A stretch of DNA of 64,000 nucleotides from a virus. A program made the position numbers and the translations under genes. The DNA lies in IMG/VR virus record IMGVR_UViG_3300008262_000226, positions 1-64,000 of that record; one strand, written 5' to 3'. Position 1 is the first letter of the stretch. Each line of letters opens with the position of its first letter. This document shows positions 48,716 to 51,515 of the stretch, piece after piece. The notes under the pieces were generated by a model. It searched no databases, was not told where the DNA came from, and saw only the letters and a list, made by a program, of their open reading frames with translations.

Positions 48716-49069
48716 ATGAATCCAAGTTCAGCAAAAGCGAAAGGTCGCCGTCTGCAACAATGGGTAAGAGATAAACTTATTGAGATGCTTGAGGTTCACC
48801 CAGAAGATATAGAATCTCGTAGCATGGGTGCTGGCGGCGAAGACCTTATCATGGCTCGTGCTGCTAGGTTAAAGTTTCCTCATAGCATCGAGTGCAAAAA
48901 CGTGGAGAAGCTAAATATATGGGATGCCTATGAGCAGGCATCTGTCAACTCTGGTGACTATGAACCTCTCGTTGTAATTAAAAAGAATGGAAAGAAACCA
49001 CTAGCAGTGGTAGACGCAGAGTATTTCATTAGTTTATTCGGAGAGAAAAATGACTCTAGATCTTCATAA
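48716..49069 (+). CDS. PD-(D/E)XK nuclease/resolvase-like protein
   Basis: A 117-residue protein with the nuclease core: GAGGEDLIM (acidic strand), then SIECKN (the E-x-K), followed by a helix with EQASVNSGDYEPLVV. Size and motifs match Holliday junction resolvase-like or Vsr-like small nucleases. It is late by its promoter and could resolve DNA branches before packaging. Overlaps the next gene by 20 nt. Confidence 0.75.
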   Translation: MNPSSAKAKGRRLQQWVRDKLIEMLEVHPEDIESRSMGAGGEDLIMARAARLKFPHSIECKNVEKLNIWDAYEQASVNSGDYEPLVVIKKNGKKPLAVVDAEYFISLFGEKNDSRSS

Positions 49070-49721
49070 CTTTTTTAAATTTTATGATGATGGTAATGCG
49101 AATCACGTTGCAGCAGTTCAATGGTTAGAAGATAACCTACCTGCTCAATTTTTAGACGATTCGGAGACTGACTGGATTGGTATCTTTAGAACTAAACCAC
49201 CAACTCCAGCAGTGCTCGATGTTCCATACTTTAATCAAGTAGATAACTACAGAGATGCACATAGAACCTGTAACAGTTCATCGTGCGCTATGTGCCTTGC
49301 TTTCCTCAAGCCAGGAAGCATCAAAGGCGATGATGAATACGTTAAGAAAGTATTTGCGATTGGTGACACGACTGACCATGCGGTTCAGACAAAGGTTCTC
49401 GCAGGTTATGGTGTTAAGTCACACTTTAGCTATAATCTTTCTTTTGCTGACATTGATAAAAGCCTTGATAGAGGTAAACCAGTTGTTATTGGTATTCTCC
49501 ACAGGGGTTCTTTATCTGCTCCTACTGGCGGGCACATGTGTGTAGTTATTGGTAAGACACCAGACGGCAAAGGATATTATGTTAATGATCCATATGGTTC
49601 ACTCAACGATAACTATACTGGTCCTGTAACGAATGGTAAGAAGACCATTTACACCAAAGCAGTTCTTAAGCATCGTTGGTGCCCAGGTGGCAACGATGGT
49701 TGGGGTCGTATTTTTGACTGA
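49050..49721 (+). CDS. C39-like papain-fold peptidase with shared N-terminal module
   Basis: A 223-residue protein. Residues 1-50 (LDLHNFFKFYDDGN, AVQWLEDNLP, DWIGIFR) form a module also present at the start of the next gene. The rest resembles peptidase family C39_2: Cys in SSSCAMC (about 77), His in GGHMCVVIG (about 165) and Asn/Asp in NDPYG. Likely a cell-wall or virion-associated peptidase. GGAG ribosome site. Confidence 0.7.
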   Translation: MTLDLHNFFKFYDDGNANHVAAVQWLEDNLPAQFLDDSETDWIGIFRTKPPTPAVLDVPYFNQVDNYRDAHRTCNSSSCAMCLAFLKPGSIKGDDEYVKKVFAIGDTTDHAVQTKVLAGYGVKSHFSYNLSFADIDKSLDRGKPVVIGILHRGSLSAPTGGHMCVVIGKTPDGKGYYVNDPYGSLNDNYTGPVTNGKKTIYTKAVLKHRWCPGGNDGWGRIFD

Positions 49722-49738
49722 TAATAAGGAGAACAATA

Positions 49739-50410
49739 ATGGCTAGAATCGATTTACACAACTTCTTCAAGTTTTACGACGAGAAGAACCCTAACCATGT
49801 AAAAGCAGTTCAATGGTTAGAAGACAATTTACCAGTTAAATATCTAGAAGATAACATTGATTGGGCGGAGATTTACAGAGGAAAAAAGGGTAATGCTGCA
49901 CCAGCTACCGCTGCTGCAGCTTCTGCTCCTGTAGTAGGTGGTGATGATGTTCCACAAATGGGCATCAAATTAGTAAAAGAGTTTGAAGGATGTAGATTAA
50001 ATGCTTACCCTGATCCTCTTTCTGGTGGTCTACCAATCACTATTGGTTGGGGTTCCACTAGAGATAAGAATGGCAAACCATTTCAGATGGGCGATAGTAT
50101 CACTCAAGCAGAAGCAGATGAGCTACTGATTGAAGAAGCAAAACATCACTTCCTTCCTGCACTTCGTAAGATTCCACACTGGAATGAAATGTCAGATGGC
50201 AAAAGAGGTGCTCTACTTTCTTTCGCCTATAATCTTGGCGCTGGTTTTTATGGTGGTGATAATTTTAATACTATTACTCGTGTTCTAAAAAATAAAGAAT
50301 GGGATAAGGTGCCCGATGCGCTTTACCTCTACAGAAATCCTGGTTCAAATGTAGAAGCAGGATTAGCACGTAGAAGAAAAGCAGAAGGTGAGGCTTGGAA
50401 AAAAGGTTAA
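49739..50410 (+). CDS. GH24-type lysozyme with shared N-terminal module
   Basis: A 223-residue protein. Residues 1-50 copy the module of the preceding gene (IDLHNFFKFYDEKNPNHV; AVQWLEDNLP). After an Ala-rich linker, residues 78-223 are a T4-lysozyme-like muramidase: catalytic E in VKEFEGCRLNAYPDP, with the usual GWGSTRD following, and the C-terminal GLARRRKAE. Likely endolysin or virion lysozyme. GGAG ribosome site. Confidence 0.85.
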   Translation: MARIDLHNFFKFYDEKNPNHVKAVQWLEDNLPVKYLEDNIDWAEIYRGKKGNAAPATAAAASAPVVGGDDVPQMGIKLVKEFEGCRLNAYPDPLSGGLPITIGWGSTRDKNGKPFQMGDSITQAEADELLIEEAKHHFLPALRKIPHWNEMSDGKRGALLSFAYNLGAGFYGGDNFNTITRVLKNKEWDKVPDALYLYRNPGSNVEAGLARRRKAEGEAWKKG

Positions 50411-50428
50411 TCACATTCAACAGGAACA

Positions 50429-50794
50429 ATGGCAGAACCACAGAAAAAGGAAAAATGTATGAGCACTATTGTTAGAATTACTGTATTGAGTTGGAGTGCT
50501 GCTCTACTTACGGCATCATATGCTGGTCTACTCGCTAAGATGGATCCAACATTTATTGCTACAGTATTTACAGCTGCTGCTGCAACCTTTGGGGTAGACA
50601 CTCTAAAGAAAGGAGATGACAAAGATGGAGATCAACCTCGTAGAGCCCCTGAGATCACCTCAGTTGAACCAACTCCAGAACCAGAACCTCCAGCAGAACT
50701 CGTTGCCGACTCTTCAGCGACCGCAGGTTGCCCAAACTGTGATTCAGGGGATACCCCAGACTACAGTAGAGCAGCTGCCCGCCCCGAAGTTTGA
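50429..50794 (+). CDS. Holin-like small membrane protein
   Basis: A 121-residue protein with two hydrophobic segments (about 13-36 and 39-58) separated by a short turn, then a charged Pro/Glu tail. Size, topology and place directly after the lysozyme make a holin likely, without sequence proof. An ATG at 50459 (MSTIVRITV) is an alternative start. The last 179 nt overlap the next gene in another frame. Confidence 0.5.
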   Translation: MAEPQKKEKCMSTIVRITVLSWSAALLTASYAGLLAKMDPTFIATVFTAAAATFGVDTLKKGDDKDGDQPRRAPEITSVEPTPEPEPPAELVADSSATAGCPNCDSGDTPDYSRAAARPEV

Positions 50795-51515
50795 GGCTCC
50801 TCCTATAACACAAGGTCTGGCACTTCCTGTTTTCAGGATGCCAGACCCTTCAATAAAATATCCTGTGATCAATGTTCCGACGCAGGAAGAGTTTGATGCG
50901 GCTGTAAAAGCAGAAAGAGAAAAAAATCAACCACAAGAACAAGAAAAGAGTAGAGGATTACCTGACGCTAAACCAGTTGAGATGCCACCAGCGATTCAAC
51001 AGGTAACACCTATAGAAACAAAAGCAGAGATACCAGCAGACAAACCTAGCGTTACTATTGCTGGATTGAATATAGACTTACCAGACCCCTCTCTCGTCGC
51101 CACGGCTGGTGCTGTGGCAGTTGTGACGACTGCTGCTACCATGGCATCTACGGCAGTTCTCAACGTGCTTAAGAATGCTGCTGAACCTATGATACGAGAG
51201 GCAACAAAGAATAAGTTTAAAATTAAAATTAAACAAGTCAAACCAGTTCTACATTATGTCATGTCAGAAGGAGGGCATGTTGATATATTTGAATACTCAT
51301 CAGAAGGAACTCGTTTGGTAGCACAGACAGATAACGTAGAGCAGTATATTCGTGATCAAATAGATACGAATACCCTTTACGAAATAGAGAACAAAGTTAT
51401 TATTGATGATGTGATGAGTGATAAGTTCACAAAAGAAGGCAGGGAAAGATTCAAAGGTCTCTTTGCCCCACCTAAAAAGATTGCTAAAAAATTATCTGCT
51501 CGCCTTTCTTTTTGA
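50616..51515 (+). CDS. Pro-rich protein with central membrane segment
   Basis: A 299-residue protein: a Pro/Gln-rich N-terminal 145 residues, a hydrophobic stretch about 158-185 (VATAGAVAVVTTAATMASTA) and a basic C-terminal domain. The long overlap with the holin-like gene recalls spanin-type nested genes, but topology differs. The ATG at 50625 is another possible start. Converges on the SNase gene with a 24-nt overlap. Confidence 0.5.
   Translation: MTKMEINLVEPLRSPQLNQLQNQNLQQNSLPTLQRPQVAQTVIQGIPQTTVEQLPAPKFEAPPITQGLALPVFRMPDPSIKYPVINVPTQEEFDAAVKAEREKNQPQEQEKSRGLPDAKPVEMPPAIQQVTPIETKAEIPADKPSVTIAGLNIDLPDPSLVATAGAVAVVTTAATMASTAVLNVLKNAAEPMIREATKNKFKIKIKQVKPVLHYVMSEGGHVDIFEYSSEGTRLVAQTDNVEQYIRDQIDTNTLYEIENKVIIDDVMSDKFTKEGRERFKGLFAPPKKIAKKLSARLSF

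Follow-up and report, generated by a model that had tools for sequence, protein, structure and literature searches.

Modular endolysins with binding domains such as LysM, SH3b, PG_binding_1 or CW_7 are known best from the phages of Gram-positive bacteria. In the pseudomurein endoisopeptidases PeiW and PeiP, a C71 peptidase is combined with a PMBR domain, which consists of four 30-35-residue repeats and binds archaeal pseudomurein (PMC2989375). Here we analyzed a small module, M, shared by two adjacent hydrolase genes in a 64,000-nt stretch of DNA from a freshwater virus of cyanobacteria (the window; positions 1 to 64,000 of IMG/VR record IMGVR_UViG_3300008262_000226). The relevant features are as follows.

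48716..49069, + strand: RusA-like resolvase family gene (phrog_244), 5′ neighbor, with a 20-nt overlap with the start of P0001
49050-49721, + strand: P0001, 223 aa, module M then C39-like peptidase
49050..49196, + strand: module M copy 1, residues 1-49 of P0001 (matches copy 2, E 2e-19; M profile match)
49215..49718, + strand: C39-like cysteine peptidase domain, residues 56-223 of P0001 (PF13529)
49739-50410, + strand: P0002, 223 aa, module M then GH24 lysozyme
49739..49885, + strand: module M copy 2, residues 1-49 of P0002 (modelled alone, pLDDT 90.1)
49886..49951, + strand: Ala/Pro-rich linker, residues 50-71 of P0002 (from sequence)
49952..50404, + strand: GH24 phage-lysozyme domain, residues 72-222 of P0002 (PF00959)
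50429..50794, + strand: DUF6450 small protein, 3′ neighbor of P0002 (PF20048, E 5e-18)

Two hydrolase genes and their shared module

The initial annotation had described adjacent genes for a C39-like peptidase and a GH24-type lysozyme with a shared start. This was borne out, with both ORFs at the coordinates above and complete Pfam domains. PF13529 (Peptidase_C39_2) covers residues 56-182 of P0001 (model 1-143 of 143; E 1.6e-14 in Pfam), and C74, H162, D180 and Q63 represent the Cys-His-Asp triad and oxyanion Gln, invariant in 29 relatives. PDB fold matches to the C39 part of the P0001 model were C39 peptidases, PeiR and papain-like enzymes. PF00959 (Phage_lysozyme) covers residues 80-216 of P0002 (model 1-125 of 125; E 2e-22; 80.3 bits versus a cut-off of 22.3), with E83, D92 and T101 at what we take, judging by eye, to be the positions of the catalytic residues of T4 lysozyme. 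With a complete domain and its catalytic residues (Glu/Asp/Thr for the lysozyme) in each case, P0001 is predicted to be a Peptidase_C39_2 enzyme and P0002 a GH24 phage lysozyme.

Within the whole virus record (126,473 bases), P0001 matches at only these two places. At this locus, the same gene pair is found in the nearest named relatives, DSL-LC02 and DSL-LC03, two Synechococcus phages of the Kyanoviridae, and M-C39 and M-GH24 keep the same order and strand in all 156 related contigs having both (156/156). Immediately 3′ of M-GH24, in 104 of the 147 related contigs with room, lies the gene for the DUF6450 protein. This protein (50429..50794) has a moderately hydrophobic segment, with a maximum 19-residue hydropathy of 1.50 at residue 17, and is possibly a holin, although this is only a guess. 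Its ORF (50429-50794) overlaps a longer one with a hydrophobic segment (50616-51515) 3′ of the lysozyme gene, which may be another holin candidate. Between M-C39 and M-GH24, DSL-LC02 encodes a small protein (L001, 4644-5027) whose start resembles a signal peptide; it is possibly a spanin or an inserted gene.

BLASTP comparison of P0001 with P0002 gave a single real match (residues 3-49 versus 4-49; 31/47 identical, 66%; 70.5 bits; E 2e-19) and no match within the catalytic parts. The match is confined to the N-terminal stretch and the Pfam folds that follow are unrelated, in line with the earlier proposal of a duplicated module followed by different catalytic domains. The start had also been called almost identical over 50 residues. 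About 48 residues are indeed shared, but the two protein copies are only 61–66% identical. At the nucleotide level, 51 aligned codons show 61% identity, with pS of 0.90 and pN of 0.26. Such saturation of synonymous sites suggests an old duplication or transfer, with protein-level selection preserving the similarity. In virus contigs, 79 distinct pairs of M gave an identity of 0.629 both for copies from the same phage and for copies from different phages, which argues against recent copying or gene conversion (identity in these contigs is 88.5% within M(C39) and 95.7% within M(GH24)). Together, the saturated sites and the equal identities rule out a recent duplication or gene conversion.

Comparison of P0002 with 87 relatives gave pN/pS values of 0.029 for M, 0.515 for the linker and 0.178 for the GH24 domain; for P0001, the values were 0.075 for M and 0.059 for C39. 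M(GH24) is under strong purifying selection, tighter than the lysozyme domain on the same chain. This substitution pattern indicates that the module is functional. In a tree of M (only 47 columns), M(GH24) groups with the C39-linked M of S-SZBM1 (support 98/83), which suggests an M-C39 gene as its probable origin.

Structural modelling predicts that M is an independently folding, uncatalogued domain of about 45–50 residues. The M of P0002, modelled alone, gave a mean pLDDT of 90.1 and four short helices, at residues 6-11, 18-30, 33-36 and 41-47. The full P0001 model has the same helices (6-10, 17-29, 32-35 and 42-48), with confidence below that of the C39 core. Pfam domain boundaries of C39_2 and Phage_lysozyme place the shared stretch outside both catalytic folds. 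As noted earlier, the module has no named family, at least in Pfam or NCBIfam. When 24 M sequences were compared with Pfam at E up to 5, there was no LysM, SH3b, PG_binding_1, CW_7 or PMBR match. Searches of NCBIfam and PDB sequences, which have low power at 50 residues, gave no family, and a PDB fold search, of similarly low power at this length, gave no match (best E 8.7). A TPR-like identity, raised by weak PDB sequence matches only, was not backed by the fold search and was set aside. M has a median net charge of –4, and the catalytic domains +3 to +4 in the commonest types. In P0001 and P0002, no signal peptide, transmembrane segment or other hydrophobic stretch is evident (maximum hydropathy 0.80 and 0.76, respectively). 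In both proteins, then, M lies outside the catalytic fold and matches no known domain, as the idea of a shared module requires, and this separate fold is joined to several hydrolases.

Distribution of M and its partner enzymes

A search for the module in other phages had been suggested, and it was productive. We assembled an M profile from the pair in the window together with annotated phages and contigs, and with it found M widely, joined to five hydrolase families: C39, GH24, GH19, GH73, and GH73 with peptidase M15. M is either N-terminal or between domains. ORF counts from all scans, a sample that is biased because the queries were M proteins, were 289 for M-C39, 166 for M-GH24, 49 for M-GH19 and 40 for M-GH73. 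Chains with two enzymes included M-GH73-C39 (26), M-C39-GH24 (11), M-C39-GH19 (5), GH24-M-C39 (2), GH73-M-C39 (2), M-GH24-C39 (2) and C39-M-GH19 (1); M-M-GH19 was found once.

Among the annotated phages listed, significant M matches were all to cyanophages, of three morphotypes (myo-, podo- and siphoviruses). Carriers are phages of Synechococcus and Prochlorococcus, along with many virus contigs. M occurs with GH19 in P60, S-CBP42, S-B28 and S-CREM2, and with GH73 in S-EIVl, S-CBS1, P-SS2 and S-CRES2. The M tree, which rests on few columns (47), implies ∼22 changes of partner. There is a single M per polypeptide in every phage ORF but one. The module is not universal, being absent from 26 C39-GH73 ORFs and from the C39 protein of S-CREM2. 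Many phages have a lone M hydrolase, with no partner found nearby. At one locus (L367, 1725-3142), adjacent M-C39 and M-GH24 genes carry M from two distant subfamilies. Two scans of genome contigs with exact 8-residue peptides recovered one relative only, VGTM01000161.1 (L321). This 3.1-kb contig has a 93% identical M-C39 gene and is filed under a Euryarchaeota MAG; it is probably a contaminating cyanophage contig.

A candidate –1 frameshift site in related phages

M is missing from the second hydrolase of S-PM2, S-CAM7, S-SRM01 and many contigs. At 72 of 72 such loci this hydrolase overlaps the end of M-C39 in the –1 frame, and at 39 of the 72 it has no start codon. A slippery X_XXY_YYZ heptamer lies within the last 30 nt of 54 of the 55 distinct M-C39 ORFs, 50 of the heptamers being A_AAA_AAG. 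By comparison, the heptamer was found in 0/94 M-C39 ORFs that precede a separate M hydrolase and in 0/50 others (0/144 together). Fisher's test of 54/55 versus 0/94 gives 3e-40, although these sequences are related and hence not independent trials. On average, the downstream 60 nt form more stable structures than their shuffles do (mean z –2.37). The upstream GGGG is uninformative by itself, since the control class has it too. Sites lie at about 3670-3690 of L004 (S-PM2) and 3660-3710 of L008 (S-CAM7), and also in L005, L230 and L369-L450.

The simplest reading of these sequences is that programmed –1 frameshifting likely yields an M-C39-GH24 or M-C39-GH19 endolysin in addition to M-C39. Re-initiation at ATGA for the M-less GH24, an idea that came from S-SRM01, was rejected because 39/72 loci lack a start codon and the heptamer is kept at nearly all loci. 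Sequencing error is unlikely to explain the frame offset in S-CAM7, since four S-CAM7 records agree. The deposited lysin annotations of S-PM2 and S-CAM7 start inside the lysozyme domain; if the likely frameshift occurs, several deposited annotations, including these, omit a real two-enzyme lysin. Such a frameshift junction is not in the window, whose lineage instead equips the lysozyme with an M of its own. S-CRM01 (L007, 4860-6193) has a GH24 split over two overlapping –1 frames, the second running into a YkuD L,D-transpeptidase domain; this could be either a frameshift or a sequencing error.

In bacteria, dnaX has a –1 programmed frameshift site with A_AAA_AAG. The cyanophage junctions share with dnaX-type sites the heptamer, an upstream G-rich stretch and, on average, downstream folded RNA. 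Unlike dnaX-type sites, the cyanophage junction, present in relatives only and not in the window, would extend an endolysin by a second wall hydrolase.

Possible roles of M

The module had been proposed to be a common docking tag, to the virion, a holin or the wall, with virion proteomics as one way of checking. In the published proteomes, P-SS2 ORF098 (GH73-M-C39) had 0 peptides (PMC2784084), S-SZBM1_31 is not in the virion protein table of S-SZBM1 (PMC9146016), and ORFs 168–170 of S-CREM2 are not among its 52 virion proteins, whereas M-less gp208 and gp209 are (PMC10665884). Gp208 (GH19) and gp209 (GH24) have the same catalytic folds as M partners. Absence from a proteome is no proof, yet the agreement of all three disfavors virion docking. 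Combined with the lack of any visible signal or transmembrane segment, it suggests that M proteins are most likely free endolysins. That M docks enzymes to the virion for entry is thus very unlikely, even though GH19/GH24 proteins do occur in cyanophage virions and, in S-ShM2, a tail gene lies next to one for a C39+GH24 protein: the S-ShM2 protein has no M, and neither do the giant hydrolases detected in S-CREM2 virions.

The wall part of the docking proposal fared better. Outside phages, M was found solely on Tolypothrix/Microchaete plasmids. Plasmid unnamed5 of Tolypothrix sp. PCC 7601 (L323, 1919-2626) encodes two PG_binding_1 stretches (E 2.8e-16) followed by two tandem M copies (E 1.4e-6 and 0.017), with no catalytic domain; the origin of this protein is itself uncertain. 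The hydrolase company of M and this PG_binding_1-M protein make wall targeting the best reading, and we consider it reasonably probable that M is a wall-targeting module of the free endolysins of picocyanobacterial phages. The M pair of L367, from distant subfamilies, fits a shared ligand better than M–M pairing. Several observations count against wall targeting. M is acidic, which is unusual for a binder of an anionic wall; there is one M per chain, whereas wall-binding motifs are often repeated; and M is absent from the 26 C39-GH73 ORFs and the S-CREM2 C39 protein. The acidic charge holds our confidence down. In the wall-targeting model, the C39 peptidase and GH24 muramidase would exit the cytoplasm via the holin lesion late in infection, M would anchor both to the host sacculus, and peptide and glycan bonds would be cut side by side. 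Here we infer the ligand (peptidoglycan or a wall-linked polymer), holin release, and cooperation of the two enzymes.

An alternative with a modest chance of being right is that M is a protein–protein docking or oligomerization domain, which unites the C39 and GH24 enzymes or tethers both to the holin or membrane. This would fit with the adjacency of both M enzymes in phages with the window's layout (156/156 contigs, same order and strand), with the placement of both activities on one chain in other phages, by direct fusion or likely frameshift, and with the position of acidic M beside catalytic domains that, in the commonest types, have a net charge of +3 to +4. It is harder to reconcile with the many phages that have a single M hydrolase and no partner found nearby, with the two distant subfamilies in L367, or with the Tolypothrix protein, where M accompanies PG_binding_1 without a hydrolase; nor is a membrane or holin link evident in the sequence. 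We think it unlikely that M acts within its own chain, as an aid to folding or solubility or as an inhibitory pro-domain that silences the lysin in the cytoplasm. M is acidic where the catalytic domains are often basic, and is mostly N-terminal and single, but such a helper would have to serve five unrelated folds, sometimes from between domains (GH24-M-C39, GH73-M-C39, C39-M-GH19). In P0002 a fast-evolving linker separates M from the lysozyme, and the Tolypothrix M copies have no catalytic domain to help. Least credible, to the point of being negligible, is that the shared start is a functionless scar of a recent tandem duplication. The genes are adjacent, and the grouping of M(GH24) with the S-SZBM1 C39 M (98/83) points to an M-C39 gene as the probable source of one copy, but synonymous sites are saturated, M copies are no more alike within a phage than between phages (identity 0.629 in each case), and constraint in P0002 is strongest on M(GH24).

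Returning to wall targeting, a broader proposal is tentative, and we would put it just short of an even call. M may be a new wall-targeting family specific to picocyanobacterial phages, with relatives in cyanobacterial plasmid proteins, and selection may place every lytic hydrolase activity, in many such phages, on M-bearing chains. There would be three routes: direct fusion; a conserved –1 frameshift, giving M-C39-GH24 or M-C39-GH19 besides M-C39; and, as in the window, an additional copy of M on the other enzyme. Beyond the initial annotation, our analysis adds that M is widespread and joined to five catalytic families, and that related phages likely make a frameshifted two-enzyme product. 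If M binds the wall, it would be useful as a compact affinity tag for picocyanobacteria, and its presence would mark true lysis genes in the genomes of cyanophages, many of these genes now being called hypothetical.

PeiW/PeiP, PeiR and P0001 are alike as viral lysins in which a small N-terminal domain is followed by a Cys-His-Asp peptidase, and the C39 model of P0001 matches PeiR (8z4h, E 2.8e-5). PeiW/PeiP differ in their PMBR, with its repeats and its pseudomurein ligand, which M did not match in Pfam. Two existing clusters, phrog_3617 and phrog_10051, contain M joined to C39 (phrog_3617 also to GH24), and the window proteins match both; both group whole proteins without defining M, and the listed function of phrog_3617 is unknown. 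M differs from LysM, SH3b, PG_binding_1 and CW_7 in that its sequence matches none of them in Pfam, is helical and acidic in make-up, and is usually present in one copy, its binding being only predicted. Like them, it is a small domain that evolves apart from the different hydrolases to which it is joined: one uncatalogued module common to five hydrolase families and three morphotypes, in phages of the most abundant photosynthetic organisms.
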